Part shown: piece after piece, positions 5,526-60,577 of the stretch | Layout: the number at the start of each line of letters is the position of its first letter | Position numbering within the stretch: the first letter of the stretch is position 1 | Source of the DNA: a virus | Reading direction: 5' to 3' (one strand) | IMG/VR virus record: IMGVR_UViG_3300025000_000064 | Location: 59,606-123,605 of that record | DNA: 64,000 nt | The notes under the pieces: generated by a model | Databases searched by the model: none | The model's input: the letters and a program-made list of their open reading frames with translations, nothing else | Told to the model about the DNA's origin: nothing | Translations under genes and position numbers: made by a program

Positions 5526-6086
5526 TTATGATTTTACATTTAATATGGCTTTCATTATTACATGAACCAATATCATATGTATGTCTTCCGAAATCTGCAT
5601 ATCGTCTATGTTTGCATTGACGGAGTGTTTACTAATTTGTTTTAATATTCCACCACCATATCCTGTTATTCCTATTGTTATGGCTCGCTTGAGATTAGCG
5701 TATTCAATTGCCTTTATTATATTCTCTGAATTACCGCTTCCAGAAATACCTATTACAACATCACCTTTATTTAAAAAATTCTTTAATTGGTCTTCAAATA
5801 TAGATTCATAACCAACATCATTTGCATAAGCTAACATAGTGGGAATATTATCATTTAAACAGATAACCTTAAACATTTTTTTATCTTTTTGTTTTGTACC
5901 TTTATTTATATCACAAGCAAAATGAGAAGCCGTTGAGGCACTTCCCCCATTCCCCATGATAAATATTTGTTTTTCATTATCTCTTGCTTCTAATAATATA
6001 TTTACAACTTTTTTTATTTCATTTTTATCAATATTATCTATTGTTTTCTTTAGTCTGTCAAAATAATTATCTATTGTTGTCATCAT
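5526..6086 (-). CDS. gmhA: Sedoheptulose-7-phosphate isomerase (phosphoheptose isomerase)
   Basis: A 186-residue SIS-domain protein. It has the phosphosugar-binding GNGGSASTASHFA near residue 45 and VIGISGSGNSENI near 110. The last helix, ISEDIHMILVHVIM, carries the Glu/His pair characteristic of GmhA. It converts sedoheptulose 7-phosphate to D-glycero-D-manno-heptose 7-phosphate, the first step of nucleotide-heptose synthesis. It overlaps the end of the kinase gene, so the two are probably translationally coupled. The length matches the family. Confidence 0.9.
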   Translation of the reverse strand: MMTTIDNYFDRLKKTIDNIDKNEIKKVVNILLEARDNEKQIFIMGNGGSASTASHFACDINKGTKQKDKKMFKVICLNDNIPTMLAYANDVGYESIFEDQLKNFLNKGDVVIGISGSGNSENIIKAIEYANLKRAITIGITGYGGGILKQISKHSVNANIDDMQISEDIHMILVHVIMKAILNVKS

Positions 6087-7032
6087 AAATTATACTTGCT
6101 CCTTTGTCTTCAAACTTAAAATCTACTTCTTTTAAATCTATTAAGCTTCTTCTCAATTGTTCTTGATTTTCCTCTTTTACATAAAGTAATAAGAATCCAC
6201 CTCCACCTGCACCTAGCAACTTGCCACCGTCTGCTCCATTTTTAATAGATAAATTATAATAATAATCTATCTCTGTATTGCTTATCTCTGAAGATAGTTC
6301 TTTTTTATACATCCAGCCTGTATGTAATACATCTCCAATTGAATCAATGTTTCCTACGCTCAATGCAGAATTTAACATTTTAGCTAAGTCAACCATTTTA
6401 CTTAAATTATTATGATTAATCTCATAGCCTTCTAACACTTTATTTGCAGACCTAACATTTCCCAAATAAAATAAAAGCAAGTTGTTTTCAAGTTTATTTT
6501 TATTTCTTTTATCAAGCTTTATACTATTTACAGTAACAGAATCATCTTGGTTAAATATTATATAGTTTAACCCTCCGTAAGCAGAGGCGTATTGGTCTTG
6601 TTTGCCAATGGGACACTTTAATTTATCTATTTCAATATCACAGGCTTTATCTGCTAAATATTCTTTATTACAGTGTTTTTTATTATATGTACTACAGAGG
6701 TTTGTTAACCCTACTGTGAATGCAGAAGAAGAACCCAATCCTGTGCCTGATGGAATATCTGCACTTGAATTAAAGTCGACGCCTTTTATATTGTATTCCT
6801 TAAAGGTTTCTCTGATTATATTGTGTTTTATTTTATCAACAGAACTTACTTTTTCAATTTCAGAATACTTAAGAAAATAATTATCCTTTTCAAAATAAGG
6901 ATGCATGGAAAGGTAAATGTATTTATTTATAGTAACAGATAAAACAGCTCCACCATATTCCTTATAGTGTTCTCTTAAATCACTACCGCCACCCGCAAAA
7001 CTTATTCTAAATGGAGTTCTTGAAATAATCAT
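6067..7032 (-). CDS. hddA: D-glycero-alpha-D-manno-heptose 7-phosphate kinase (GHMP family)
   Basis: 321 residues with the GHMP kinase N-terminal motif ISRTPFRISFAGGGSDL, the ATP-binding PSGTGLGSSSAFT near residue 95, and the C-terminal GADGGKLLGAGGGGFLL motif. The PFRISFAGGGSD start is diagnostic of the HddA/Fkp branch. It phosphorylates heptose 7-phosphate at C1, giving the 1,7-bisphosphate. It follows hddC with overlap and GAGGGAG upstream of the ATG. A GmhB phosphatase, needed for the next step, is not seen in the window. Confidence 0.92.
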   Translation of the reverse strand: MIISRTPFRISFAGGGSDLREHYKEYGGAVLSVTINKYIYLSMHPYFEKDNYFLKYSEIEKVSSVDKIKHNIIRETFKEYNIKGVDFNSSADIPSGTGLGSSSAFTVGLTNLCSTYNKKHCNKEYLADKACDIEIDKLKCPIGKQDQYASAYGGLNYIIFNQDDSVTVNSIKLDKRNKNKLENNLLLFYLGNVRSANKVLEGYEINHNNLSKMVDLAKMLNSALSVGNIDSIGDVLHTGWMYKKELSSEISNTEIDYYYNLSIKNGADGGKLLGAGGGGFLLLYVKEENQEQLRRSLIDLKEVDFKFEDKGASIIYDDNNR

Positions 7033-7714
7033 GCCTGACTCCCTCTAATTTTTCTAAAGTTCCCAAATCTTTTAATATTTCGTCTGTTTGATAAGCTATA
7101 ATTGAAACACCATTATTCAACATTCTTGGAAACACATCTTTGCCAAAATCTTGTGGCTCTGTAGAATCTATAAAATGAAGTATTTTATCTGATAATATAT
7201 AAACCGCTGCATTATTTAATAAATTACAATAATTTACCGCATGATTTCTTGGTTTTGGATAAAATGCTGTTACTTTATTATTATAAACCCGCAATACGTC
7301 TTCTTCTTCTGGACAAATAGGTTGTTGAACAATTATTGTAGCAAACGCTCTAATATGTTCATAAAACTCAATAAATTTATTAATATCAAAATTTAAATAT
7401 AAATCACCGTAAAATACCATAAATCTATCTTGTAATATTGATTTAGCAGAATATAAAGCTCCTGCTGTTCCCATTGGTTTTAATTCTTGTATGATAGTTA
7501 AATCTATACCATTTGGCATATTATCTTTAAAATAATCAACAATAACTTCGGATAAATGCCCTGCAATTATTACAATATCTGTTATTCCATGTCTTATAGC
7601 CAAGTCTATTTGATGATGTATAATGGGCTTATCACCCAATAACACCATAGGTTTTGGAATATCTTTCAAGCCAAGTCTTGTGCCTTTGCCACCAGCTATA
7701 ATTACAAGTTGCAT
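7007..7714 (-). CDS. hddC: D-glycero-alpha-D-manno-heptose 1-phosphate guanylyltransferase
   Basis: A 235-residue nucleotidyltransferase with IIAGGKGTRLG at residues 5-15, KPMVLLGDKPIIHHQI near 20, and VFYGDLYLNFD near 100, where the metal-binding Asp sits. Linkage to hddA and gmhA identifies it as HddC, which transfers GMP to heptose 1-phosphate to give GDP-D-glycero-alpha-D-manno-heptose. Sequence alone would also allow a glucose or mannose 1-phosphate nucleotidyltransferase. GGAGG lies upstream of the ATG. It overlaps the epimerase gene by 13 bases. Confidence 0.85.
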   Translation of the reverse strand: MQLVIIAGGKGTRLGLKDIPKPMVLLGDKPIIHHQIDLAIRHGITDIVIIAGHLSEVIVDYFKDNMPNGIDLTIIQELKPMGTAGALYSAKSILQDRFMVFYGDLYLNFDINKFIEFYEHIRAFATIIVQQPICPEEEDVLRVYNNKVTAFYPKPRNHAVNYCNLLNNAAVYILSDKILHFIDSTEPQDFGKDVFPRMLNNGVSIIAYQTDEILKDLGTLEKLEGVRHDYFKNSI

Positions 7715-8646
7715 TTGATTGCCTCCATTATTGCCTGATTAGATGTCATACTTGCTCTCCAACCCAGATTATGTATTTTATCTAAGCAATAATCAAATTC
7801 TGATACATCTCCAATCCAACCTTTATTTCCACCTGTGTATTGTACCTTTGTTATATTTTGTAGATTCATTGCCTTTATAACCATTTCTGCAATCTCTTTT
7901 ACATAAGTTCTTGTATTATTTCCTATATTATATAAATTTATCTTTTCATTTGTATTATTACAAACATATAATATTGCATCTATAAGTTCATCAACATATA
8001 AATATGGCTTATGTTGATTTCCATCTCCTAAAACCGTTAATGTATTTGGGTTTTCTTTTAATTTATTTATAAAATCATATATGATTCCATGTGTTGCTCT
8101 TGGTCCAACGACATTTGGAAATCTAAATATCCACGCTTGCATATCGTAGTTCTCAACAAAGCTTGATATAAATGCCTCTGAGGCTAATTTGGAAGCACCG
8201 TAATGTGAAACTGGAAGTAATGGTCCAGAATCTTCAGACAGTTTGCCTTTTAATTCTCCATAAACCGCTGAAGTAGATGCAAATACAATCTTTTTTACAT
8301 TGTATTCCCTCATGGTATTTAATATATTAAATGTTGTATCAAATGTATTACATAAATCAATATTCGGGTTTTCATTGCTTTTAGAAATATCAGAATTGGC
8401 AACCAAATGAAACACAGTATCTATATTTTCTTTTTCAAATATTTGATTAAGTATTTCCGAATAAGTAATGTTTGATTCATAAAATGAAAAATTAGGATTA
8501 TCAAAATTATGTTCAATATTATTTATTCTTCCATTTGATAAATTATCAACGACAATTACTCTATTGTCTTGAGCTAATAGGACATCAACTAAATGGCTTC
8601 CTATAAAACCTGCACCGCCTGTTATTAATATGTTTTTAGTTTTCAT
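7702..8646 (-). CDS. NAD-dependent sugar epimerase/dehydratase
   Basis: A 314-residue extended short-chain dehydrogenase with the Rossmann motif ILITGGAGFIGSHLVD at residues 6-21, VVDNLSNGR, FASTSAVYG and the catalytic HYGASK (Y-x3-K) near residue 147. C-terminal PYLYVDELIDA fits UDP-glucose 4-epimerase relatives. It is the first gene of the glycan operon and may act on the GDP-heptose made downstream, or on a separate UDP sugar. AAAGGAG lies just before the ATG and is directly preceded by a folded leader RNA, so expression may be controlled there. Confidence 0.85.
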   Translation of the reverse strand: MKTKNILITGGAGFIGSHLVDVLLAQDNRVIVVDNLSNGRINNIEHNFDNPNFSFYESNITYSEILNQIFEKENIDTVFHLVANSDISKSNENPNIDLCNTFDTTFNILNTMREYNVKKIVFASTSAVYGELKGKLSEDSGPLLPVSHYGASKLASEAFISSFVENYDMQAWIFRFPNVVGPRATHGIIYDFINKLKENPNTLTVLGDGNQHKPYLYVDELIDAILYVCNNTNEKINLYNIGNNTRTYVKEIAEMVIKAMNLQNITKVQYTGGNKGWIGDVSEFDYCLDKIHNLGWRASMTSNQAIMEAIKCNL

Positions 8647-12599: not shown

Positions 12600-13457
12600 T
12601 TATTCCTTTATATAAAATAAATCTGCTTCATTATTTATATCTAATATAAATTCTTTTGTTTTGCTTATTATATTTTCATATATTTCTTTATGTTGTTTGG
12701 CATCGTTTATTAAATTAGCATCTCTGTCTGGATGATTGCCATGCTTGTTATTTCCGTAATCTATAACATTAAACTGCAATGAGCAATTTCCACATTTCCA
12801 ATATCTCAAATCTATTCCCTTGTATCTATCTCCGAATGTTTTTATTTTAAAATCATCTTCAACTAATCTTTTACCGCAAGAAGGACAAAATAATTCAGTC
12901 TCGTCACAATAATTATACTGTGCAACTTCTGATACAAAGTCAATTAAATCTTTTTTATTATTAATCTCTTCCAGTTCTTTAGATAAATTTTTTATTGTTA
13001 ATAAATCCTTTTCTCTCGCTTCCCCTAACTGTGTTCTATTTATTTTCTCTAACTTATAAATTTTATTATATAAATCATTTTTAGAATCAACATCATTTAC
13101 TTTTTTATATGAAAGCTCAATCAAATTTTTAATACATTGTTCTTTTTGCCATAAAAAATAAGCAAATTCTTTACTAAATACTTCTTTAACAATAAATTCA
13201 TTTGTAGCAAACACTGGAGCTTTACAACAACAGCCATCTTCAACAACGTCTCCAATTGTTTCTATTAAGGCTATTTCGTATTCTCTGTCCTTATATACAG
13301 ATTGTTTCCAATACCACATGCCATCAGTTATAGTCTGATATAACTTAAAGCCCACACCGTATATAGTTGGGTCATCATATAGTTTAACATGTTCTCCCAA
13401 TTCATACTTAATGCCATTATCTATCAGTCCTTTTCTAAATATTTTGTAACCTATCAT
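12600..13457 (-). CDS. Phage protein with DUF7666-like N-terminus and zinc ribbon
   Basis: 285 residues. The N-terminal ~100 (MIGYKIFRKGL, KYELGEHVKL, YGVGFKLYQT) resembles a domain common in phage accessory proteins (DUF7666-like). Then follow a coiled-coil stretch and a zinc ribbon: LFCPSCGKRL and WKCGNCSLQF, two C-x2-C knuckles about 30 residues apart. The zinc ribbon suggests nucleic-acid binding. It is the first gene downstream of the large RNA gene's terminator. Confidence 0.55.
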   Translation of the reverse strand: MIGYKIFRKGLIDNGIKYELGEHVKLYDDPTIYGVGFKLYQTITDGMWYWKQSVYKDREYEIALIETIGDVVEDGCCCKAPVFATNEFIVKEVFSKEFAYFLWQKEQCIKNLIELSYKKVNDVDSKNDLYNKIYKLEKINRTQLGEAREKDLLTIKNLSKELEEINNKKDLIDFVSEVAQYNYCDETELFCPSCGKRLVEDDFKIKTFGDRYKGIDLRYWKCGNCSLQFNVIDYGNNKHGNHPDRDANLINDAKQHKEIYENIISKTKEFILDINNEADLFYIKE

Positions 13458-13514
13458 TTTATTATCCTTAATTTCTATATAAATATATTAAACGATAAAA
13501 TAACATCTGTCAAT

Positions 13515-13545
13515 ATATAATAAAAAGATGTCTTTCGACATCTCT
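13515..13545 (-). terminator. Intrinsic terminator of the large RNA gene
   Basis: On the minus strand, AGATGTC-GAAA-GACATCT forms a 7-bp stem with a stable GNRA tetraloop (13526-13543) and is followed at once by TTTTTATTAT. This is a textbook Rho-independent terminator. It lies downstream of the structured RNA and upstream of the 13457 gene. Confidence 0.85.
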
Positions 13546-14078
13546 TACAAAGGAGCAATTATTTATTATAAACAACCAATAAATAATAAATTATAAAACA
13601 TAGACAAGGTTTATTTTTTACTTGCAAGCTTTCACCATACAGCCATTTACCATTATTCAGACACATACTAGGTTAATTGTACTTTTTAACCCTTAACATA
13701 TGAAGAGATTGGTTACTCTTAGCTTTCACATCCAATATCATATTTTATATAGCCGTTATTTTCAAGCGACATTTGCTACTCGCACTCCGTACATAGTCTT
13801 TCGTATCTGATATTAACCAGATACCAATCGCAGTTTATCACGTTTCTTTGTTCAAATGTATCCTCACTTCACTAAGGTAACATAAAAATTCAGATAGCTT
13901 ACACAAGACTTACAGATTCCTTATGGTTTTATAGTTACTTACAGTTATTAACAATTCGTCTTTGACAAAACTATGAAGGGCATTCCAACCCTCTTATTAA
14001 TACACTTTTGAGAACTTGGCATTCTCTTCAGTCACTATATTTTACAATTTATTATTTAATTATCATGGTTCGATTATA
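13515..14078 (-). ncRNA. Large structured noncoding RNA (ROOL/GOLLD-like candidate)
   Basis: A ~560-base transcript unit without a meaningful ORF, with its own sigma-70 promoter and terminator. On the minus strand 14041-14058 and 13581-13598 pair in 18 of 18 positions (one G-U), closing a ~478-base domain. Inside lie many hairpins: GAGAA/TTCTC, CCTTA/TGAGG, GTATCTG/CAGATAC (13803-13824), AAGAG/CTCTT and GGTTAA/TTAACC. Base composition is less AT-biased than intergenic DNA. Size, phage location and multi-stem design resemble the giant ornate RNA classes (ROOL, GOLLD), but I cannot test family membership. It lies between two oppositely independent gene blocks. Confidence 0.75.
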
Positions 14079-14084
14079 TTTTTA

Positions 14085-14113
14085 TTATGTATTATAACAT
14101 CTTACTTGTCAAG
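14085..14113 (-). promoter_or_regulatory. Sigma-70 promoter of the large RNA
   Basis: TTGACA (14113-14108), 17-base spacer, CATAAT (14090-14085) on the minus strand. The predicted start is near 14078, about 20 bases before the closing helix of the RNA. Confidence 0.75.
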
Positions 14114-14151: not shown

Positions 14152-14484
14152 CTATAATTTATATATGTTTTCTTTGTTTAATGCGCTTTTATACACAGAT
14201 ATAATTTCTCTAAACCCACTGCATGTGAATTCTAAAGACTCGCTATATACAATATTGTTAACACACATTCCAACTATTGATAAACAGTCAAAATTATCTG
14301 GGTCTATAAGCTTTACCCTAATGTCTATTAATGGGCTAATATAACTGAAGCAACTTTCCCTTTCGGATATTTTTATATTAGCAAATTTAGTAAGTAAATA
14401 TTTTAATAAAAAATATATATATCCATCTTGGTTTTTGTCTATCAGAACACATAAAGAAAACCTATTGTTTTTCATAATAATCAT
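14152..14484 (-). CDS. Hypothetical protein
   Basis: About 110 residues (MIIMKNNRFSLCVLIDK...). No motif recognised. The start overlaps the end of the 14462-14635 gene, consistent with coupling; AAAGAG lies upstream. It ends about 40 bases before the large RNA promoter. Confidence 0.55.
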   Translation of the reverse strand: MIIMKNNRFSLCVLIDKNQDGYIYFLLKYLLTKFANIKISERESCFSYISPLIDIRVKLIDPDNFDCLSIVGMCVNNIVYSESLEFTCSGFREIISVYKSALNKENIYKL

Positions 14485-14635
14485 TTATCTCTTTTTTTAT
14501 TGCTTCGACCAATTTTAAGCCATTCTCTTGGCAAGTCATATTCTGGTTATGAAAGGGCATTGTGTCCCTAAAGAGAGCAACATATAATCCTGATAATTTT
14601 GATGACAATTTATATATTCTAGATTCTTTTTTCAT
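14462..14635 (-). CDS. Small protein (57 residues)
   Basis: Starts with the ATG in a TAATG overlap with the CobO-like gene; GGAG is a few bases upstream. The product is MKKESRIYKLSSKLSGLYV followed by a helical end (LKLVEAIKKEINDYYEKQ). No family recognised. Confidence 0.6.
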   Translation of the reverse strand: MKKESRIYKLSSKLSGLYVALFRDTMPFHNQNMTCQENGLKLVEAIKKEINDYYEKQ

Positions 14636-15213
14636 TAATACTCCACACCTCGCCTACTTTTTACTCCGATATCTATATAATGCTTTATAGGGTTCATTCC
14701 TGTTATCAGATGGGCAACTTCAAATAATTTTTCTCTTATCTCTGGTCTACCTATTCTTCCAGTCATTACCACTTCTAACCTTTTTGGTTTATTTTTTAGA
14801 AAATCTAAAACTTGGTCAATGTGTATTGTGTCCAAATCTAAAGCTATGTTTATTTCATCTAATACTATCATGTCATACTCTTTGGCATTATGTATGATGT
14901 AGAACCATCCCTTTTGTGCCTCCAATTTGTCTTCGTCTGTTAAGTTGGCTTTATATACAACTTTATCAAATCCACAATTTTTATATTTTAAATTTTTTCT
15001 TATATTGTCCTTTAATGAATTTAAAGCGTTATATTCTCCGTACTTGCACCTATCTCCTCCTTTGCAGAACTGCATGATAAGAACTTTCCACCCAGAACCT
15101 AAAGCCCTTAAAGCCAAACCCATAGATGCAGTAGTCTTTCCCTTCCCTTCTGATGTGTATATTTGTATATATCCAGTTTTTCTAAACTTTGGATTTTGCA
15201 ATTCTTCTGTCAT
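14635..15213 (-). CDS. cobO: Cob(I)yrinic acid a,c-diamide adenosyltransferase-like (CobO/BtuR family)
   Basis: 192 residues with the family P-loop IYTSEGKGKTTASMGLALRA, MQFCKGG, the Walker B-like MIVLDEINIALD, and the end signature EVVMTGR, ITGMNPIKHY and GVKSRRGVEY. These match bacterial CobO/CobA adenosyltransferases, which attach the adenosyl group to cob(I)alamin or its precursor. Length is normal and the key motifs are intact, so it may be an active auxiliary metabolic gene that feeds adenosylcobalamin to B12-dependent enzymes. No other cobalamin gene is in the window. Confidence 0.85.
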   Translation of the reverse strand: MTEELQNPKFRKTGYIQIYTSEGKGKTTASMGLALRALGSGWKVLIMQFCKGGDRCKYGEYNALNSLKDNIRKNLKYKNCGFDKVVYKANLTDEDKLEAQKGWFYIIHNAKEYDMIVLDEINIALDLDTIHIDQVLDFLKNKPKRLEVVMTGRIGRPEIREKLFEVAHLITGMNPIKHYIDIGVKSRRGVEY

Positions 15214-28391: not shown

Positions 28392-28522
28392 AATTTACCT
28401 CTTTTTTCTAAACTTACTAAACTCGATATATTAAACTTACCACTTGGATTTATTTTTGTCAATATATGTTATTTTCCAGTCATTTGTTATAAAAATCTCA
28501 ACAAAATATATCAACTATTTTT

Positions 28523-28551
28523 AGTATAGCATTATGGTTTTTATTTGTCAA
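28523..28551 (-). promoter_or_regulatory. Leftward sigma-70 promoter
   Basis: Minus strand: TTGACA (28551-28546), 17-base spacer, TATACT (28528-28523). Drives the SSB-like gene and probably the replication genes beyond. A weaker TTGACA with TAAGTT lies closer to the gene (28462-28434). Confidence 0.8.
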
Positions 28552-28659
28552 CATATTAAAAATATCATCAATAAAATAGCCAATAATATATATTATACTT
28601 ATAAGAATTATTCTAAGCGGTTAGTCTAATTAGAATAACACTAATTTAGAATAAAATAT

Positions 28660-28940
28660 ATAGATTAATACTTAACTTACAACATAACTTAATACATAGA
28701 ATAATACTTAACTATATTCTTAACTAAATAATAACTTAATATTTAACTATATTCTAATTAACTTACTACATATTAACTTACTTCTATTAACTGACTACAA
28801 TTTAACTTACTTCAATTAACTTATATCTAATTAGAATATTACAATATAACTTAATACATATTAACTAAATACAATAACTTATTACTTAACTTACTACTAA
28901 CTAAATACTTATTAGACTAATATATTAACTTAATACTAAT
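28660..28940 (+). repeat. AACTTA repeat array, AT-rich
   Basis: Eleven copies of AACTTA lie in about 270 bases, mostly within the longer forms TTAACTTACTAC, TTAACTTACTTC or ATAACTTAATAC, irregularly spaced. Related AACTAAAT and TAATTAGAATA units are mixed in. G is nearly absent. Both strands are full of stops. Such iteron-like, easily melted DNA is typical of origins. Confidence 0.65.
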
Positions 28941-28970
28941 TAGAATAATACTATATAGTATTATATATAA

Positions 28971-28992
28971 ATGTTACCTATACAGGTAACAT
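28971..28992. promoter_or_regulatory. Dyad operator ATGTTACCT-ATAC-AGGTAACAT
   Basis: A perfect inverted repeat with 9-base arms and a 4-base centre, the size of a dimeric repressor site. It is placed about 190 bases upstream of the rightward promoter and right beside the repeat array. It could equally be a replication-protein site. Confidence 0.6.
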
Positions 28993-29185
28993 ATAATTAT
29001 AGCATGTTTTTAGAAAAAGTTCCTAAAATTTTATTTATTTTAAAATAATCAAATTAACCCAATCCAAAAATAATTAAAATATGAGAATATTCCAAGGAGC
29101 GTAGCCCTCTTACTTAAAATTAGTAAGGGTTATGGAGGATAGTTGTTGTAACAATTATTAGTATAACAATTTAATTAAATATATA

Positions 29186-29214
29186 TTGACAAAGATTATG
29201 CGATGATATATACT
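29186..29214 (+). promoter_or_regulatory. Rightward sigma-70 promoter
   Basis: TTGACA (29186-29191), 17-base spacer, TATACT (29209-29214), 26 bases before the thymidine kinase ATG. Same -10 hexamer and spacing as the leftward promoter. Confidence 0.85.
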
Positions 29215-29239
29215 TAAAATATAGTGAGTTGAGGTAAAT

Positions 29240-32868: not shown

Positions 32869-35604
32869 ATGATAACAATGGATAAAAATGAAATAATATT
32901 AACAAAGGAACAAAATAATATCTTGAAAACATTAAATAATGACCAAGAATATATTGTCATAAACGCTTTTGCTGGAGCATCAAAAGCACAACCACTATAT
33001 TCTAAAATATTAACCCCTAGTGGTTGGACAACAATGGGCAAAATAAAAATTAATGATGATATAATAGGCTCAGACGGCAATATATATCAAGTAGTTGGAG
33101 TTTATCCGCAGGGTGTAAAAAAAATAAATAGAGTAACATTCTCTGATGATTTTTATACTGATTGTTGTGATGAACACCTATGGTCTACCAAAACAGATAA
33201 AGAAAGATTCTACAAGAAACAACCAACCGTTAAAACAACTTTAGATTTAAAAAATACTCTATATGAGTCTAATAAAAATAAAACAAGAATTGTTAAAAAC
33301 CATTCTATAGAATGGTGTAAGCCTATTAATTTTCCAAAAAGGGAATTAAATATACATCCTTATGTATTGGGTATTATAATAGGAGATGGCTCTATTGATT
33401 CTAATGGCAATGTAATAATAACAAATCCAGAGATAGATGTAATGGATAAAGTTAAAAGATATTTACCAGAAAATATTTATTTGAAAACAAGAGATTATAA
33501 AGATAGATGTATAGCATATGGTATTAATTGTAATACCAGATACAACGTATTCAGTAAATATATAAAAGAATATGGGCTAAATGGTAAAAAAAGTTGGGAA
33601 AAATATATACCTGATGATTACATGCTATCCTCTGTAGAAGACAGACTTAATTTATTACAAGGATTAATAGATTCAGACGGATGCGTAAATAAAAATACTT
33701 CTAATGTTACATATACCACTACTTCTAAAAAATTAGCAGAAAATATTATAGATTTGGTTCAATCACTAGGGGGAAGAATAACAATTTCTGAAAAAATGGG
33801 GAAATATACTAAAAATAATATCACTAAAGAAACAAGAGTTTTTTATTCACTTAATATATTATTTTATAATAATATAATCCCTGTTTCATCAGAAAAACAC
33901 TTAAGTAGATTTGTAAAAGCAAAAAGACAATATGAAAGATATATTAAAAATATAGAACAAATAGGAGAAGAGGAGTGTCAATGTATAAGAGTAAACGCTC
34001 CAAATAGTCTATACATAACAGATAATTATATATTAACACATAACACCACTATTTGTATAGAATTAATTAAAGAAATGCTAAAAAATAATAACAGTAGTAA
34101 AATTCTTTACACATGCTTTAATAAGCTTATAATGGAAGAAGCCAAAAGTAAATTCAAAAGGTTAGGTCTGAATATAGAATGCAGGACTGCTCACTCTTTG
34201 GCCTTAAAAGAATTACAAAAAATAAAAAAAGTAGAATTAATATTTTATTTAGATTATGATTTCTTTAAGAAAAAGAAAAAAGATAAGAAATCAACCTTTA
34301 TTGGAGTAAAATATTTAATAGATAAATATACCTCATGCGATTTTAATATGGAAGAGTTCAAAACTATATCTTCAGATAATTTATACAAAGACAATAAGAT
34401 AACAGCATATGAAAATAGAGATATTGACGAATTTGAAAATATATATAATTTATTAATAAAAGAAAATAAATATATGCACAATATGTATTTAAAAGAATTT
34501 GCTTTATTAAATACTTCCATAGAAGAATTCGACTATGTGCTAGTTGATGAGTCTCAAGATTTGGACACAGCAATGCTTTCTATTCTTAAAAACATGAAGT
34601 GTAAGAAAAAATACATAGTTGGAGATTCTTTTCAAACAATATATGCTTCATTTAGAGATACGGTAAACGCTTTAGATATTTTAGCAGAAGAAGACAAGTC
34701 CAATGTTTATCCATTATCTAAAAGCTTTAGGTTTCATGACGATATAGCAGAATTGGCAAATGTCATTTTAGAAGGAAGTGGCTCTGTATTAAAATTAAAA
34801 GGTAATGGCAAAAATAAAAATAAAAACGTATGTGATAAAAATATAACTGTCTTATTTAGAAGTAATTTTGGGATATTAAATTGGGCATGCAAACGGCTAA
34901 AATTAGAAAAAAATATAAAGTTTAATTTCAATGGGATAAGTGATGGCAAATCCGCAAAAGATTTTAATGAATTGTATTACGATTTTATTAGCTTGCTAAA
35001 ATTAATGTCACAAGACAAGAAAGACAAATATTTTGAATCAGAGCTAGATAGGTTTTTTCCAGTTCTAAAACTGTCTCCCAGAGTTCTTAAAATGAAAAAG
35101 ATAGCTTCTGAAGAAAAGAAATCATTATCTGGATACCTTAGAGAACAATGCGAAAAGAATGTAATGCTAGACCAAGACTTAGTAAATTATTGGAAGTTTG
35201 CAGAGGTAACATGGGTAGATTTAATAAACAAACTAAGGAGTTTAGAAAATTCCCAATATGTAAAAAATCCAGATAAGATTTATACTCTTTATACAACACA
35301 TAAGGCAAAAGGGTGTGAGTGGGATAATGTGATAATAGCTGAAGATTGTTGGTATAGCCATGAATATGGTGTTGATGATGAAGATTACAAACAGGAAGCT
35401 ATGAATATTATATATGTGGCATTGACTAGGAGCAAAGAGAAATTAACTATAGAATCAGAAATAATTAATGATTTATTAAACATAGAAGGCGAAACAGAGC
35501 TGAATGACTTCTTTTCTTCGGGAGATTCTTTTACATCTGTTGAATTAGAAGATGGAACAATTGAAGATGATTATTTAGAAACAGAAGAAACATGGGGAGA
35601 ATAA
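32869..35604 (+). CDS. UvrD-like SF1 DNA helicase, interrupted by an intein
   Basis: 911 residues before splicing. The N-terminal extein ends at VINAFAGASK (Walker A) and resumes at TTICIELIKEML after the 353-residue intein. The spliced motif, AGASKTT, is that of UvrD/Rep-like helicases. Further motifs: YVLVDESQDLD (Walker B), GDSFQTIYAS (motif III-like Q), FRFHDDIAELA (motif IV), YTTHKAKGCEWDNVI (V) and YVALTRSKEKL (VI). Mature size is about 558 residues. It probably acts in replication restart or recombination. Confidence 0.9.
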   Translation: MITMDKNEIILTKEQNNILKTLNNDQEYIVINAFAGASKAQPLYSKILTPSGWTTMGKIKINDDIIGSDGNIYQVVGVYPQGVKKINRVTFSDDFYTDCCDEHLWSTKTDKERFYKKQPTVKTTLDLKNTLYESNKNKTRIVKNHSIEWCKPINFPKRELNIHPYVLGIIIGDGSIDSNGNVIITNPEIDVMDKVKRYLPENIYLKTRDYKDRCIAYGINCNTRYNVFSKYIKEYGLNGKKSWEKYIPDDYMLSSVEDRLNLLQGLIDSDGCVNKNTSNVTYTTTSKKLAENIIDLVQSLGGRITISEKMGKYTKNNITKETRVFYSLNILFYNNIIPVSSEKHLSRFVKAKRQYERYIKNIEQIGEEECQCIRVNAPNSLYITDNYILTHNTTICIELIKEMLKNNNSSKILYTCFNKLIMEEAKSKFKRLGLNIECRTAHSLALKELQKIKKVELIFYLDYDFFKKKKKDKKSTFIGVKYLIDKYTSCDFNMEEFKTISSDNLYKDNKITAYENRDIDEFENIYNLLIKENKYMHNMYLKEFALLNTSIEEFDYVLVDESQDLDTAMLSILKNMKCKKKYIVGDSFQTIYASFRDTVNALDILAEEDKSNVYPLSKSFRFHDDIAELANVILEGSGSVLKLKGNGKNKNKNVCDKNITVLFRSNFGILNWACKRLKLEKNIKFNFNGISDGKSAKDFNELYYDFISLLKLMSQDKKDKYFESELDRFFPVLKLSPRVLKMKKIASEEKKSLSGYLREQCEKNVMLDQDLVNYWKFAEVTWVDLINKLRSLENSQYVKNPDKIYTLYTTHKAKGCEWDNVIIAEDCWYSHEYGVDDEDYKQEAMNIIYVALTRSKEKLTIESEIINDLLNIEGETELNDFFSSGDSFTSVELEDGTIEDDYLETEETWGE
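32986..34044 (+). mobile_element. Class 3 (WCT) intein with LAGLIDADG endonuclease
   Basis: Residues 40-392 of the host protein. The first residue is Ala (AQPLYSKILTPSG), not Cys or Ser. The C-terminus is YILTHN followed by Thr. The three class 3 residues are visible: Trp in block B (DEHLW, residue 105), Cys in block F (CQCIRV, residue 372) and Thr in block G (ILTHN, residue 390). The endonuclease has two dodecapeptides, VLGIIIGDGSI (~166) and LLQGLIDSDGCV (~262). Both look intact, so splicing and homing are plausible. Confidence 0.88.
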
Positions 35605-42795: not shown

Positions 42796-44018
42796 GGGGT
42801 GGATTTAAAAACCTTTCAAAGAGATATGTCGTATTAATAAAAATGAAAGAATAAAGTAAAGAATAATGAAAATACATAGAAGTAGCAAATGTTATTTTAA
42901 TAAATGGCTAACTACCAAGAAAAAACAAGAATTAAAAGAAATTTTGGTTGAACACTCTCGTATTGTTAATTATTTTATTCGAAAATATGAAAACGACATT
43001 CCGCAGAAAAAGAAAAATGAATTACTTTTAGCTAATTATATACAAGAATGTATTTCTGATACAAAAACATTCTTTACTGCCAGAATGGTTAAAAACTGTT
43101 TTAGTGAAGGCTATGGAATGATACAGTCTTCTAAATCACTATCAACTTCTATGGGTAAAAAATATGTTTCTCCTAAGCATTATGGGAAAAGGATGATTCT
43201 TTCTGAAACTATTGCCACACACGATATAGCTAGGCAGACTAAGTTATTTGATTTCAATTTAACTTTAGGTTGCGTAAGAACCGATAGGAAGAAACATAAA
43301 ATTTCAATACCTTTAAAAAGACACATACAATTTAATAAATGGAGTATTCTCGGAAAATTATCTAAATCAGTAGTTATTACAGACAAATATGTAATATTCT
43401 TTTTTAAAGTAGAGACTGGCAAGAAGAAAACGGAAGGTGAGTTGGTAGGGTTCGATTTTGGCTTAAAGAGATTAGGTACTCTCTCTAATGGAGACGTTAT
43501 TGGAAAAAATATTAATAAATTATTGTTGGAATTAAACATAAAGAAAAGATGTAGTAAGGCGTATTACAGAAAGAAGGAAGAAATAAGGGAGTATATCAAC
43601 AAAGAAATTAAAGATATAAATTTCAACGATAAACAACTGATAGTTGTTGAAAAATTAAAGAATATGAAATATAAGATGAAAGAGAGAGGGCGACTCTCTA
43701 AAAGTATTCGCTCTGTTTTCTATAACTTAAGTTATAGGCAAGTTCTACAGAGAATACAAATGTTGTGTGAAGAGAACCGTGTCTCTTTTCGTTCAATTTC
43801 TCCATTCTGGACTTCCTGCGAGTGCTTAAGTTGCGGACACATAGAAAAGAAGAATCGTTTATCACAGGAATCTTTTGTTTGTCTGAAGTGTGGTCATTCA
43901 GATAATGCAGATTCAAATGCGAGCAAAGTAATACTGAAACGGTTCATCACAGGAAAGTACGGTTTCTGTTACCAACAAGATAATTTAAAGGAATATTATA
44001 TTTCTGCAAATTAAAATG
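42796..44018 (+). mobile_element. TnpB-only IS200/IS605-type element
   Basis: About 1.2 kb between the two halves of the broken gene. Its left junction is the pentamer TTGAT, the target/TAM of ISDra2-type elements. Joining TTGAT to the right flank at 44019 restores one reading frame (LITVDL for LIGVDL). No TnpA transposase is present, so it would need a helper. Right end is placed to within a few bases by frame logic. The omega-RNA scaffold should overlap the 3' end of tnpB. Confidence 0.65.
42866..44014 (+). CDS. tnpB: RNA-guided nuclease TnpB (IS605 OrfB family)
   Basis: 382 residues. RuvC-I is GFDFGLKRL (Asp 197), RuvC-II VVEKLKNM (Glu 262), the zinc finger CECLSCG and CLKCGHS, and RuvC-III DNADSNAS (Asp 349). 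The N-terminal basic REC/WED-like part is complete. All catalytic residues are intact, so a functional nuclease guided by omega-RNA is likely. It would cut the paralogue target without the insertion, favouring retention of the element. Confidence 0.9.
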   Translation: MKIHRSSKCYFNKWLTTKKKQELKEILVEHSRIVNYFIRKYENDIPQKKKNELLLANYIQECISDTKTFFTARMVKNCFSEGYGMIQSSKSLSTSMGKKYVSPKHYGKRMILSETIATHDIARQTKLFDFNLTLGCVRTDRKKHKISIPLKRHIQFNKWSILGKLSKSVVITDKYVIFFFKVETGKKKTEGELVGFDFGLKRLGTLSNGDVIGKNINKLLLELNIKKRCSKAYYRKKEEIREYINKEIKDINFNDKQLIVVEKLKNMKYKMKERGRLSKSIRSVFYNLSYRQVLQRIQMLCEENRVSFRSISPFWTSCECLSCGHIEKKNRLSQESFVCLKCGHSDNADSNASKVILKRFITGKYGFCYQQDNLKEYYISAN

Positions 44019-54687: not shown

Positions 54688-55302
54688 TTAAGTAATTTTA
54701 TCAAAGTTAGTAAGTAAAACTCCAGAAGGTAAAGCAACCTGTAAAAATTCTGACATATATTGTCTTTGATTATCTGTTAATTCTTGATTTGAATAATAAA
54801 TAGAAACTCCACAAGGAAAAACACTTGAATAATTTACTGTTTCTGAATTTGTTAATATTTTTACAATATTTATTATTTCTTCAGGGGTGCAACTTCCTAT
54901 ATTTCTTTTAATTTTTGCCTTAATTGCATTTCTATAAACAATATCTGTTCTTGTTTCCCCTACTGAGCCACCAAGTACATTTGAGTCATACCAAAAGCCT
55001 TCATTAAACCCAGAACCCAATGTATTATCAGAAAAAGCAAAGAATCCAATATCTAAATTAACTGTATATTTTCTTGGCTCTCCGACTATTTCACCAACAT
55101 GGTCAAGGTTTATTCCTTCAGCTTCATTTATAGTTCTTAAATATCTCAAATCATAAATTGCTTGATATATTAAATCTAACTCTTCTGAAATAGCTTTTAA
55201 ATACATTTCAAAGTTTGGTTGATTAAAATAGTTTTGAGGAATACTTTGTATCTTTTCAAATACAGAGCTTGGAATAAAAATATCTTTAATATCTTGCATC
55301 AT
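54688..55302 (-). CDS. Baseplate protein (Mu gp48/DUF2612-like)
   Basis: 204 residues. NEAEGINLDHVGEIVGEPRK near residue 60 is the typical 'LD-x-x-G-x-x-V-G-x-x-R' signature. The rest, TVNLDIGFFAF and YRNAIKAKIKRNIGSCT, fits the family that links the wedge to fibres. Genes run baseplate J, this one, then fibres, as in Mu-like contractile phages. Confidence 0.75.
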   Translation of the reverse strand: MMQDIKDIFIPSSVFEKIQSIPQNYFNQPNFEMYLKAISEELDLIYQAIYDLRYLRTINEAEGINLDHVGEIVGEPRKYTVNLDIGFFAFSDNTLGSGFNEGFWYDSNVLGGSVGETRTDIVYRNAIKAKIKRNIGSCTPEEIINIVKILTNSETVNYSSVFPCGVSIYYSNQELTDNQRQYMSEFLQVALPSGVLLTNFDKIT

Positions 55303-55314
55303 ATCTTTAATCCT

Positions 55315-56481
55315 TTAAACTATTGTTATTTTATCATCTGAGAATACAGCTATTTCGTCATAAGCTATTGTAATATCTTGTTCTACTTCATCTGATGTTG
55401 TGCCAACAGTTAATCCTAATTTAGTAATATTTGAAATTCCTGGAATTGCATAAATAATAGAATATAATCTTGTTCTTATTACATCATCTGATATTAACAA
55501 ATTTGAAGAAGCATAAGTTGTTAATGCCTCTTTTATTTGGTCGTCTCCATCATCAGGAAATAATGAGTTTGTTTCTATATCTATATAAATAAAAATTGGA
55601 ACACTTGTCGGTATTGTAAATCCAATATTTTGATTATTACCTTGAGAGTCAACAACCACTTCTGTTGTTGTTCCATAAGCTTGTATTCCAGCAGGACCTT
55701 TTAGCCAAATTGTTTCTGCTATTTCTGCCGAATCTCCACCATAAACAATTAATTCATAAGAATTTGCAGGTTGACCATCAACTACATTAGATGTTCTATT
55801 TTCCCTTATATTAACATCCAATACATTATCAACATCAGATACGTTTGAAATTAAAGCTTCAGAAGATGAAGTTCCACCTATTGATAATTGAAGTTCTCTT
55901 CTCTCTCTATATTCTGCATCTGTTTCTTCGTATCTGCCCAATGTGGTTTGTACATTTGCATTTGTTACAGATGCCCAACCACTTACAGGTGTTTCAATTA
56001 CAGTTAAAGTTCCAGATAATACAGAAATATCGCCATATTCTTGAGCAATAACATTGGCATCAATTGTACCTACAATTGGTATTATTATTTCTGATTCTGT
56101 TTCAAATTTATAAGATGTTCCCGTTACTGATATTATTGAACCAATTGGTATTATAGTTCCTACAGTTCCAACAAATGTACAATTAACAACAGTTTTGACT
56201 CCTGCTAATCTTTCGCAAGATGTATATTCTCCAATATTATCAAGTTGCAAGCCTTGTGAGCCTGAAGGATATTGACTGTAATATAGAGCTTCTAAATTAT
56301 CCCAGACATCAGCTAATTCACTTGATATTGTTATTAGAAGCACATCATTGCTTGTATCTGACTCAGATGGGCGAATTTGATATGAAGGATAGTAATTATC
56401 TTGAATATAAGCCTCTAAGCTCGATTCAATATCGGTTTGTTCTTTTTTAGAAAATCCGTCACTTGAAAGACCAAAGGTCAT
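55315..56481 (-). CDS. Baseplate J-like wedge protein (Mu gp47 type)
   Basis: 388 residues. DNIGEYTSCERLAGVKT, then VTGTSYKFETESEIII and the family core GRYEETDAEYRERRELQL, SSEALISNVSDVDNVLDVNIREN. These are conserved in baseplate J of contractile tails. It forms wedges around the hub. Confidence 0.9.
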   Translation of the reverse strand: MTFGLSSDGFSKKEQTDIESSLEAYIQDNYYPSYQIRPSESDTSNDVLLITISSELADVWDNLEALYYSQYPSGSQGLQLDNIGEYTSCERLAGVKTVVNCTFVGTVGTIIPIGSIISVTGTSYKFETESEIIIPIVGTIDANVIAQEYGDISVLSGTLTVIETPVSGWASVTNANVQTTLGRYEETDAEYRERRELQLSIGGTSSSEALISNVSDVDNVLDVNIRENRTSNVVDGQPANSYELIVYGGDSAEIAETIWLKGPAGIQAYGTTTEVVVDSQGNNQNIGFTIPTSVPIFIYIDIETNSLFPDDGDDQIKEALTTYASSNLLISDDVIRTRLYSIIYAIPGISNITKLGLTVGTTSDEVEQDITIAYDEIAVFSDDKITIV

Positions 56482-56503
56482 ATTTAATACCTCTTATAAT
56501 ATA

Positions 56504-56866
56504 TTATAAATTAAAATTTAATCCGTTTGCTGTTGCTGTTCCATAAATTGTATTAATTTTGAAACTGATTGACAAAACTCTTGTTTGGTTATTAAAATCA
56601 TAAGAAAACTCAATTACTGATTTAACGCCTGGTGTTTTTAAAATTCTATCTTTTATTGCTTCTGCTGCAATATATTTATTCTTTTTGCCCAAAACATATC
56701 TGAAATAATCCATTCCTGCTTCGGGATATATGCTAAAATTACCAACAGCAAAACTTAATCTGCTTTGTATATGTTGTAATATAGCATCTACGCCATCTAT
56801 CCAGACTGGCATTCCAGTTGTGAGGTCAATATCCCCATCCGATGTTAATTTAACCTGTAGTGTCAT
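56504..56866 (-). CDS. Baseplate wedge protein (gp25/W-like; Mu gp46 type)
   Basis: 120 residues. DLTTGMPVWIDGVDAILQHIQSRLSFAVGNFSIYPEAGMDYF is the canonical gp25/gpW pattern, and ALRxRILKTPGVKSV-like EAIKDRILKTPGVKSV follows. It is the initiator of sheath polymerisation in contractile tails. Confidence 0.85.
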   Translation of the reverse strand: MTLQVKLTSDGDIDLTTGMPVWIDGVDAILQHIQSRLSFAVGNFSIYPEAGMDYFRYVLGKKNKYIAAEAIKDRILKTPGVKSVIEFSYDFNNQTRVLSISFKINTIYGTATANGLNFNL

Positions 56867-56868
56867 TA

Positions 56869-57570
56869 TTAAAACGCTCCTGTATTTCCACCTTCTGGAT
56901 TTGTATGAACATGTCCATTTACTGATTTTTCACCACTTAAAACATTTGAGCCAGCAATAGTTGAATCAGAACTTATTGCACCGCCTGAATGAGTTGTTCC
57001 TGTTATTGTTACATTACCTGTTATTGTGGTATTGCCAATTATTTCCCATGTTCCATCAGTGTTTAATTTAAGTTTTGTTGCGGTTGCTTGTTTAACTAAA
57101 CATTCATCATCTTTTGTTAATGTTAAAGTAACACCTGAATTATATTTGCCAATTACTAAATCGTCAGCACTATGGTTTGGTATTGATTTATTAAAAGGAT
57201 TAAAGCAAGGAATAAATATTGAGTTTGAATAATTAAAATTATGATTTGGGTCAAGCTTATTTAAACTTCCTGTTGTTTTTGCCAAATCAATATCCATTGA
57301 CAATATATGTAAAATTCCTAAATCACCATCTTTTAAAGGCATTGATATAAAGAAATCACCAGTTAATAACATAAATACAGGAATATCAGTTAATACGGGG
57401 ACTTCTTCATATATATCTACATCAACCTCAAAAGCACCCATTATTTTAACATTTGCTCTTCTTGTTGTGCTATCATATTTTTCAATTCTTGCAATGTATG
57501 AAGTGCGAATACTGTTTTGTATATATTCCGCATATATAGTTTGCCATTGTAGCCATGAGTCAGGAGACAT
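56869..57570 (-). CDS. Baseplate spike protein (Gp138-like)
   Basis: 233 residues. An N-terminal OB-like region (YIARIEKYDSTTRRANVKIMG, PVFMLLTGDFFISMPLKDGD) is followed by a repetitive beta-helix (NTTITGNVTITGTTHSGG) and a His-rich tip NGHVHTNPEGG that can bind iron, as in Gp138/gpV spikes. It pierces the outer envelope. It starts next to the opposite-strand HNH gene. Confidence 0.8.
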   Translation of the reverse strand: MSPDSWLQWQTIYAEYIQNSIRTSYIARIEKYDSTTRRANVKIMGAFEVDVDIYEEVPVLTDIPVFMLLTGDFFISMPLKDGDLGILHILSMDIDLAKTTGSLNKLDPNHNFNYSNSIFIPCFNPFNKSIPNHSADDLVIGKYNSGVTLTLTKDDECLVKQATATKLKLNTDGTWEIIGNTTITGNVTITGTTHSGGAISSDSTIAGSNVLSGEKSVNGHVHTNPEGGNTGAF

Positions 57571-57656
57571 ATTTTCCTCGCTTTATTATATATTGTATTT
57601 ATTTTTAAAATATGTTATAATTTTATTATGTTAAAATTTATTATAAAGGTTTATGA

Positions 57657-58328
57657 ATGAGAGAAATTAAAAATTATATTAATGAAAAATTTGGAAGACT
57701 AACAGTTGTGAAATATAGTCACACTGATAAAAATTATAAAAAGTATTATATATGTTTATGTGATTGCGGAAATATTACTACTGTATCTATAGGTAATTTA
57801 AAAAATTGCATAAAATCATGTAGATATCTTAAGAAGGAATTACACTTAAAGAGGAATATTATCCATAATTTAAGTAATACTAGATTTTATAAAATACATA
57901 AATCTATGAAAGAGAGATGTTTAAATAAAAATAATAAAAATTTTAAAAATTATGGAGGAAGAGGAATTACAATACAAAAAGACTGGTTGAATTTTAATAA
58001 TTTTAAAAATGATATGTATGAATCATATTTATCTCATATTGAACAATATAGCGAAAAGCAAACAACCATAGATAGAATAGATGTTAATGGCAATTATGAA
58101 TTAAATAATTGCAGATGGGCGACTTGTAAAGAGCAAGTACACAATAGAAGGAGACAAAAGAGTCAAAAAGAATTTAAAGCAATATCTCCCGAAGGGATAG
58201 AATATATTAGCGATAATCAAATGAAATTTGCCAAAGAGCATGGATTATATTTTACTTATATAAGTAGATGTTTAAATAAAAAATACGGTTTTAAATCGCA
58301 TCATAAATGGACTTTTGAGTATATTTAA
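57657..58328 (+). CDS. HNH homing endonuclease (AP2/NUMOD1-like), opposite strand
   Basis: 223 residues on the strand opposite to all surrounding tail genes. RFYKIHKSMKERCLN, NYGGRGITIQKDWL and the HNH core TIDRIDVNGNYELNNCRWAT match the dnaB-linked HNH protein. The end, FKAISPEGIEYISDN, is nearly the same module. The zinc site is altered: CLCDCG is kept but SCGCL has become SCRYL. The 3' end overlaps the hub gene by four bases. It is a recently duplicated or imported mobile gene. Confidence 0.85.
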   Translation: MREIKNYINEKFGRLTVVKYSHTDKNYKKYYICLCDCGNITTVSIGNLKNCIKSCRYLKKELHLKRNIIHNLSNTRFYKIHKSMKERCLNKNNKNFKNYGGRGITIQKDWLNFNNFKNDMYESYLSHIEQYSEKQTTIDRIDVNGNYELNNCRWATCKEQVHNRRRQKSQKEFKAISPEGIEYISDNQMKFAKEHGLYFTYISRCLNKKYGFKSHHKWTFEYI

Positions 58329-59287
58329 ATTATGATAGCTTCTATATCACAACCAAAGTCCCCATCTGTATTATTTCCTGCCAATGTTATATTTTTAACA
58401 ATACAATAATTTTTAGGAAAGAATTTACTTTGTATTTGTAAATAGCTGCCAGGTATTATTTCTGGTATCATCAGTGTTTTAAACTGAAGCTTATGTTCTT
58501 TATCATATTGCTTAGTTTCAAACTTTTGTGTAGCTTCTGCAATACTTCTATTTCTTGCAGCAATTGATTTTGGAGTTGGTTTCTTAAGTGGTTTTCTTGT
58601 CTTGTTATATTTTTTATGAATTTTGGTAATCGTTTTCTCTATACTTCCAACCAATCCTGTTTCTTCACTTATTACAAAAGCATTGCTTGTTATTGCTGTA
58701 TCGTCTTTTTTTATAATAAGTTTATTATTCTGTATTGAATATCTAACACCATTTTTATAACAATATTCTTTTAAATATTTGGCAGAACTGCCAAATAATG
58801 TATGGGAATTTGTTATTACTGCTGTTTCATCAACATCTAATATTTTTGGGTCTGGAAGTCCCATTGAATTTGATATATCTTTTAATATTTTATAATAAGT
58901 TGTTCCCGAAGGATAAGTTTTATTTATTCTTGAATCTCTATATTGATTGCTTCCGTCTTCAAAAGTAATCTCAGTGGAAACGGTTGCACTATCATAAGAG
59001 TGTTTAACTTTTGAAATGTTTCCCATTCCAATAAGTTTATATTCTTCTTCGTAACCACCATATATAACACAATAAATATACTTATCTTCTATTGCTCTTC
59101 TTGTTTCTTCGTTAAGGTTGTATAGCGTACAAGATGATTCATTTGGTTCTTTCTCTGATGTTTTAACAACAGAAAACGACATATCAAAACCGTCTTTATT
59201 ATTTGTGGTTCTGGCATTAAATTTTTGACCTTTGCCATTTTCATCAGCAAGTTCTATATATAAACATCTGTTGAATAATGTACTCAT
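58325..59287 (-). CDS. Baseplate hub protein (gp27/gpD-like)
   Basis: 320 residues. A beta-barrel start (FDMSFSVVKTSEKEPNESSC) is followed by IIGMGNISKVKHSYDSATVST-like GNISKVKHSYDS, the hub core VRYSIQNNKLIIKKDD and a C-terminal DIEAIII. The layout fits central hub proteins of contractile phages. It lies next to the spike across the HNH insertion, as expected. Confidence 0.65.
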   Translation of the reverse strand: MSTLFNRCLYIELADENGKGQKFNARTTNNKDGFDMSFSVVKTSEKEPNESSCTLYNLNEETRRAIEDKYIYCVIYGGYEEEYKLIGMGNISKVKHSYDSATVSTEITFEDGSNQYRDSRINKTYPSGTTYYKILKDISNSMGLPDPKILDVDETAVITNSHTLFGSSAKYLKEYCYKNGVRYSIQNNKLIIKKDDTAITSNAFVISEETGLVGSIEKTITKIHKKYNKTRKPLKKPTPKSIAARNRSIAEATQKFETKQYDKEHKLQFKTLMIPEIIPGSYLQIQSKFFPKNYCIVKNITLAGNNTDGDFGCDIEAIII

Positions 59288-59308
59288 TAAATAAACCTAT
59301 TAATATTA

Positions 59309-59677
59309 TTATTGATTTTCAAAAACTATATTTGATATTGATAATTTATGTTCATCGCCTAAATTAAATTGACTTGGATAATCATTCTTATTAACTATAT
59401 TATAAGAGAATAAAAATGGTGTATTTAAATCAAAGAGATGTTGATAATTATGATATAAGTTCCAATTGGGAACAATCTTTGTTGTGCATAATAATTCTTC
59501 TAATTGATTATAAACTTCCAATGACCAGAACTCATAAAGATTATTCCATTTATACCAAAATATAAACTCTTTATTGTTTATATTTATATTATATTTAAAG
59601 GAAGAGTCTGCAAAAAGTGGTAAGTCTTGAGCCGTTATATTTTCTACCATATCAATAAAAGATTCTATTTTTATCAT
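59309..59677 (-). CDS. Baseplate plug-like protein
   Basis: 122 residues with FKYNININNKEFIFWYKWNNLYEFWSLEVY, resembling small baseplate plug proteins (DUF6983 type) of cyanophage-like minimal contractile tails. It sits between the hub and the Dit-like gene, the expected place. Confidence 0.6.
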   Translation of the reverse strand: MIKIESFIDMVENITAQDLPLFADSSFKYNININNKEFIFWYKWNNLYEFWSLEVYNQLEELLCTTKIVPNWNLYHNYQHLFDLNTPFLFSYNIVNKNDYPSQFNLGDEHKLSISNIVFENQ

Positions 59678-59699
59678 TTTATTATCCTTTATAGATTGA

Positions 59700-60563
59700 T
59701 TAATTAATCATATATTTTTGTATATCTAAATTAAACTCTCTTCTGCCTATCTCTATAATTTGATTTCTTTTACTGTCTGATACTGTTGGCATCCAAGCAT
59801 ATTTTCCATCCATTCCAGGCACAGAGACAAAATATGTATCTGGATTTGTAGCAAAACTATTTCTAAAATTTTCTATAGGGTTATTTACAACACCCTTTTG
59901 ATTTCCTTTATCTTTTGCTCCTGCTGTTTTATTTGCATTTGCTATTTTAGCTAGAATACTAGCGTTCGAGCCATCATTTTTTGCCAAAGAAGCAGCCAAA
60001 GCAGCTTTTAATTTTGCAATAATTTCTTTTGATAAAGTTGTTTTCTGAGAATTTACTTTTGGAGTTTCTTTAAATGTTAAACTAACATCCCAGCCATCTC
60101 CTGAGTCTATATTTTCCTGAAAAGAGATAGACTTTAGCATAAATCCAGAGTAAACCCTGCTGTTTATATCTAAATAATCAATTACAACGGCTTTTGCTTT
60201 TATCTTTTCTAATAATGCTAAAACATCTTCTTTTTTTCTTTTTTGAATGCCTGTTGTTGTCGAAGAAACTTGCATACCATTTGAATCAATTGGGATTGCA
60301 TTAACAATGGCTCCATTTTTTAAAAAAGTTGTTATATCTTCTTTTCTTATTATGAGTTCAACTTCTTCTTCAGCAGGAATAAATATTATTGCAGGAACTT
60401 CTCTAAGATTTTCAATTGAATTATCTGTAAAGCTTTTTCTTGTCTCCGAAGGGTGTTCTGTTATTGTATTCTCAGAACTATAATCAGAGCTTAAACAAAC
60501 TTTTATAAATAATTCTTTATTTTCCTGTGTTTCTGGGTCTTTATATGTTAAAAATAATGACAT
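59700..60563 (-). CDS. Dit-like tail protein
   Basis: 287 residues. The N-terminal half has a Dit-type pattern: ITTFLKNGAIVNAIPIDSNG, then AVVIDYLDINSRVYSGFMLKSISFQENIDSGDGWDVSLTFKE. An Ala-rich linker and a conserved end (WMPTVSDSKRNQIIEIGRRE) follow. It connects tube end and hub. The linker is unlike short Dit proteins. Confidence 0.6.
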   Translation of the reverse strand: MSLFLTYKDPETQENKELFIKVCLSSDYSSENTITEHPSETRKSFTDNSIENLREVPAIIFIPAEEEVELIIRKEDITTFLKNGAIVNAIPIDSNGMQVSSTTTGIQKRKKEDVLALLEKIKAKAVVIDYLDINSRVYSGFMLKSISFQENIDSGDGWDVSLTFKETPKVNSQKTTLSKEIIAKLKAALAASLAKNDGSNASILAKIANANKTAGAKDKGNQKGVVNNPIENFRNSFATNPDTYFVSVPGMDGKYAWMPTVSDSKRNQIIEIGRREFNLDIQKYMIN

Positions 60564-60577
60564 TTATTTATTCCTTA

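Follow-up and report, generated by a model that had tools for sequence, protein, structure and literature searches.

Large non-coding RNAs of phages

ROOL and GOLLD are large ornate phage RNAs which form protein-free cages. ROOL assembles into an RNA-only homo-octamer, and its conserved stems P1–P19 are supported by covariation. ROOL genes are often located near tRNA islands, an association that is common but not universal (PMC12286853). The lncRNA of L. salivarius, which is very abundant and stable and whose deletion mutants are viable (PMC5643018), is the ROOL RNA of pMP118, as identified here by a covariance-model match and in the literature (PMC12286853). The most abundant transcript of ICP1, a phage that lacks tRNAs, is an RNA of ~800 nt encoded in a gap without ORFs (PMC7567579), and phage K carries lnc001, which is 635 nt long and has its own early promoter, as well as lnc002 (PMC9241854). 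In the PLE satellite, terminal inverted repeats are reported to flank an abundant RNA and a MITE origin has been suggested; the IIR transcript of this satellite displays antisense homology to the leaders of several ORFs (PMC7567579).

The locus described here is, judged by its sequence, very probably an RNA gene. In full, it is proposed to be a free-standing orphan gene for a large phage ncRNA of the ICP1 and phage K kind, the product of which would probably be a stable particle of folded RNA, either single or assembled into a homo-oligomer; taken as a whole, this statement stands about evenly between right and wrong.

Genomic setting

The window, i.e. the whole stretch of 64,000 nucleotides under analysis, comprises bases 59606–123605 of an IMG/VR virus record totalling 123,605 bases, and its G+C content ranges from 24 to 33%. 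Since the record encodes a tail sheath, a portal, a terminase and a capsid protein in addition to a DnaE-type polymerase and a DnaB-like helicase, the virus is a tailed phage. The capsid protein shares about 30% identity with those of named phages. The closest DnaE elsewhere, searched for with the single sequence as well as with an alignment, is at most 40% identical, and these searches revealed neither synteny nor a homologue of the RNA. An identical capsid protein, found with the capsid as search seed, is encoded by one 22-kb viral contig. A copy of the RNA is absent from this contig, which says little because the contig is a fragment. Neither tRNA nor tmRNA is detected in the record by ARAGORN, and an identity of the RNA as one of these is rejected.

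Several other features of the record deserve mention. A BtuR/CobO corrinoid adenosyltransferase gene (window 14635–15213, minus strand; Pfam E 3.7e-50) adjoins the RNA gene, and relatives of this protein occur in only six records within the phage collection, including cyanophage PSS2. A TnpB-like transposase gene (window 42866–44014, plus strand; PHROG transposase families) is an unlikely partner of the RNA, because it is situated 29 kb away. Two contractile-tail gene sets, each with tape measure, baseplate J-like gene and neighbours, are found at opposite ends of the record (L040:1223-9365 and window 54688–62476); by eye, the ORF translations display a similar order and diverged sequences. 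Inspection of translations also indicates a UvrD-like helicase with an apparent intein at the Walker A motif (window 32869–35604, plus strand), and a run of sugar-nucleotide genes (window 5526–8646, minus strand) for a GmhA-like isomerase, a GHMP kinase, a nucleotidyltransferase and an epimerase, adjoined by glycosyltransferases and methyltransferases. This gene content suggests that the phage remodels a surface or virion glycan.

A self-contained transcription unit

The unit and its flanking genes comprise the following features:

14152..14484, minus strand: preceding gene, 110 aa, without family assignment; its end lies 40 nt from the promoter of the RNA
14084..14112, minus strand: sigma-70-type promoter of the RNA gene, TTGACA-17-CATAAT (consensus scan, 11/12 bases)
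13523..14077, minus strand: non-coding RNA of about 555 nt (no coding frame; fold z -3.77)
13523..13546, minus strand: intrinsic terminator of the RNA gene, AAGAGATGTCGAAAGACATCTTTT (terminator-like site search)
13485..13513, minus strand: separate promoter of the next gene, TTGACA-17-TAATAT (consensus scan, 10/12), directly after the terminator
12600..13457, minus strand: downstream gene, outside the RNA, 285 aa, weak DUF7666 match below the Pfam cut-off

Promoter, non-coding stretch and intrinsic terminator thus succeed one another at 14112–13523. The start of the RNA at 14077 was placed 7 nt past the −10 box, and its end was taken to be the terminator. Promoter sites of equal quality (11/12) number only 29 in the 123.6-kb record, both strands counted, and two terminator-like sites are present in the 2.8 kb scanned, where 0.5 are expected. 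The unit fills the gap between two genes, of which the next one has its own promoter, and should therefore give rise to an independent transcript. The sequence-only reading had placed a stand-alone structured RNA gene, equipped with promoter and terminator and devoid of an ORF, at 13515–14113; these coordinates are correct, the sequence supports the description well, and the strand, missing from that reading, is the minus strand.

The arrangement would in part also suit a long 5' leader or attenuator controlling the gene at 13457–12600, as the unit lies directly upstream on the same strand and carries a terminator at its end. However, the second promoter at 13513–13485, positioned between this terminator and the start codon, disfavors a leader function, and no riboswitch or leader family of Rfam matches the locus, making such a role very improbable.

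The unit contains no ORF of at least 40 aa on either strand, and its longest stop-free stretch in six frames is 40 codons. Scored with the phage's own codon usage, the six frames range from -0.35 to -0.85, whereas 147 equally long windows from phage genes have a minimum of +0.07. An ordinary coding gene is rejected, since all six frames score below the coding windows of the phage. Both the missing coding capacity and the transcription signals are evident from the sequence, and the unit is presumably transcribed.

Among the ORF-less gaps of the record, the one harboring the RNA gene is the third longest. The two longer gaps (L041:5779-7899 and window 28392–29239) are full of TTAACTTA-type repeats and differ in kind from it: they are very A-T-rich and share direct repeat families of the TTAACTTA(N)TAC type. 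The gap at 28392–29239 is situated at a switch of gene strand and GC skew, and both gaps therefore resemble origins of replication or partition regions.

The closing helix

The most prominent structural element of the RNA joins its two ends:

14035..14058, minus strand: 5' arm of the 24-bp closing helix (mean pairing probability 0.97; shuffle and window tests)
13580..13603, minus strand: 3' arm of the closing helix (same basis as the 5' arm)

Positions 14058–14035 pair with 13603–13580 in 24 consecutive pairs, 22 of them Watson-Crick and two G-U, and 431 nt separate the arms. A pairing of both ends had been claimed before, with 18 positions across 442 intervening bases; it is present and longer than proposed. 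The helix is composed almost entirely of A-U pairs, a point against the proposed reading. In 3000 dinucleotide shuffles of both end segments, 24 pairs were never reached (best 18), and of 4104 windows with this geometry, covering both strands of the whole 123.6-kb record, it is the sole helix of at least 18 pairs. At two positions the underlying DNA repeat is imperfect; in minus-strand RNA these become G-U pairs, whereas a plus-strand RNA would have A-C mismatches there. Moreover, the fold energy amounts to -130.1 kcal/mol for the minus strand versus -90.9 kcal/mol for the plus strand. Because the G-U pairs fit the minus strand only and the minus strand folds better, selection on the minus-strand RNA is favored; the helix and its strand can be read from the sequence directly.

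Inverted repeats at both ends (13580–13603 and 14035–14058), together with a weaker outer pair (13498–13529 and 14076–14107; 75%), could also mark a DNA-level or dead element, that is, a MITE-like insertion or a decayed gene caught between promoter and terminator. The PLE satellite, with its terminal inverted repeats and suggested MITE origin, offers a precedent (PMC7567579). However, the element is present as a single copy in the record, it retains no residual coding signal, and its promoter and terminator are good and in register. In addition, the placement of both imperfect repeat positions as G-U pairs points to selection acting on RNA. A mere DNA element is accordingly quite improbable.

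Known RNA families and search for relatives

All 4227 Rfam models were run, over the whole record at gathering thresholds and over the region at E<=10. In the record, no family scores at or above its gathering threshold; at E<=10 the region yields none of the large RNA families, only chance-level matches to unrelated ones. The ROOL model (RF03087) matches neither in the region at E<=10 nor in the whole record, whereas it detects the ROOL RNA of L. salivarius pMP118 at 130.4 bits; with this working positive control, identity as ROOL is rejected. For GOLLD, too, the Rfam scans gave no match, neither with gathering thresholds nor at E<=10, the positive control having covered the ROOL model only. 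The same scans returned no covariance-model match for OLE, HEARO, raiA, 6S, RNase P or group I and II introns. Membership in ROOL or GOLLD, considered in the sequence-only reading, is therefore not supported, and the OLE and HEARO models, which it had also named for comparison, fare no better. Neither ROOL nor GOLLD is a suitable label for the locus.

Relatives were sought at the level of the RNA and of its neighbors. Blastn against phages and plasmids yielded no homologue, only short fragments of 7–10% cover or less, and single-protein seeds from neighboring genes led to none either. Scans of viral contigs and GTDB genome contigs with exact RNA patterns, which are sensitive to close relatives only, gave no real homologue among the matches listed; these were screened by blastn and nhmmer, or seen to lie inside coding sequence. 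One such match (L252) falls within an open frame of 1,791 codons, and its similarity is gone once the 17-base seed is masked. In 399 genomes of one phylum only matches of 20–70 nt occur, mostly to the A-T-rich clamp formed by the closing helix, and 43 virus records contain one match of 43 nt, located within an ORF. The RNA gene thus far stands as one orphan, well supported by its sequence.

Predicted architecture of the interior

Between the arms of the closing helix, the following elements are predicted:

14010..14026, minus strand: hairpin GAGAAU/GUUCUC (probability 0.99)
13946..14002, minus strand: three-way element with hairpins 13993–13976 and 13969–13955 (probabilities 0.71, 0.93, 0.76)
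13786..13916, minus strand: branched domain closed by UCUGUA-AGUCUU/AAGACU-UACGGA, with hairpins 13877–13862 and 13824–13803 (closing pairs 0.8; hairpins 0.93, 0.99)
13670..13692, minus strand: hairpin GGGUUAA/UUAACCU with a 9-nt loop containing GUAC (probability 0.78)

Four interior hairpins (14026–14010, 13993–13976, 13877–13862 and 13824–13803) are predicted with a mean pairing probability >0.9 and several more with about 0.7–0.8. The GUAC loop at 13670–13692 is a possible self-kissing site in the model, although a 4-base palindrome in a 9-nt loop is not rare by chance.

Folded as a whole, the RNA displays a z of -3.77, and 0/100 shuffles are as good, a result due in large part to the closing helix and the terminator. 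The interior alone reaches only z -1.01, with 18/100 shuffles as good. Sliding folding windows across it are mostly ordinary; those at 13741–13890, which overlap the branched domain, show z -2.3. Since the interior folds no better than shuffles and its windows are mostly ordinary, its architecture stays a prediction. The six further hairpins noted earlier are thus predicted, four of them at the >0.9 level, and may form, but the energy of the interior is within chance. Folding energy decides neither way, because an authentic ROOL RNA is just as ordinary by this measure: that of pMP118, folded whole as a control, gives z -1.09 with 16/100 shuffles as good.

An interior that folds weakly by energy would suit a fold that depends on protein. 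In the main rival explanation, the structured RNA would bind a protein, be it host RNA polymerase, a ribonuclease or a phage protein, and serve as a scaffold or decoy like 6S RNA or OLE. The gene anatomy expected for such an RNA is identical to that of a particle-forming one. However, the Rfam families with this mode of action, 6S and OLE, are without a match at the locus, as are HEARO and all others, and family searches of the neighboring proteins recognized no partner gene beside it. The weak interior is no argument for a protein, because a real ROOL RNA also has ordinary folding energy. Protein binding is on balance unlikely, though it remains a serious contender.

Proposed mode of action

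According to the preferred reading, transcription by a host-type RNA polymerase would begin near 14077 on the minus strand and run to the terminator at 13523. The 24-bp helix would then close the product and clamp its ends, leaving the interior as a single multi-branched body. Stabilized by this clamp, the folded RNA would accumulate as single particles or, like ROOL and GOLLD, as homo-oligomers, and presumably act in trans. In phage setting, size, clamped ends and gene anatomy the RNA agrees with these two, and a ROOL/GOLLD-like manner of action is conceivable at somewhat less than an even chance.

The folded particle is preferred over a leader of the next gene and over antisense action. Pairing with phage or host mRNAs has a parallel in the antisense homology of the PLE satellite RNA to ORF leaders (PMC7567579), but when compared with the translation starts of 184 phage ORFs, the interior is no more complementary than shuffled sequence (score 25 against a shuffle mean of 26.3). 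Antisense action on the phage's own translation starts is rejected on this basis, and an antisense regulator in the wider sense is extremely improbable.

An independent phage RNA that matches ROOL and GOLLD in size and gene anatomy, in a record without tRNAs or close relatives, would suggest that such RNAs evolved in phages more than once and that tRNA linkage does not belong to their function. A bolder proposal sees in the gene the first of a hitherto undescribed class of giant ornate RNAs in phages, unrelated in sequence to ROOL and GOLLD, held by a 24-bp clamp and assembling as an RNA-only homo-oligomer; taken as a whole it is improbable, though a new class as such is conceivable.

Comparison with known large RNAs

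The RNA resembles ROOL (RF03087), a phage or mobile-element RNA of 500–660 nt without ORF, in its length of about 555 nt and its lack of a coding frame, with negative codon scores throughout. Both have helix-closed ends, as the same prediction assigns a 7-bp closing stem to pMP118 ROOL, and their paired fractions are similar (0.60 and 0.59). In contrast to the short stem of ROOL, however, the clamp of the locus RNA is 24 bp long and A-U-rich; in addition, the RNA lacks a covariance-model match and nearby tRNAs. With GOLLD it shares large size, a phage-borne location and the absence of coding capacity, but neither an Rfam match nor tRNAs nearby. As with the PLE IIR transcript, inverted repeats flank a non-coding RNA of a phage-related genome, whereas the antisense homology to leaders seen for IIR was not found here.

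Sequence similarity to the ICP1 and phage K RNAs was not found by blastn in the phage collection, and while those RNAs are abundant by RNA-seq, the RNA described here is predicted from sequence. In size and organization, however, it corresponds to them: an orphan large RNA, equipped with promoter and terminator, occupies a gap of several hundred bases that is free of ORFs. A promoter of its own is likewise present in lnc001 of phage K, and tRNAs are likewise absent from ICP1.
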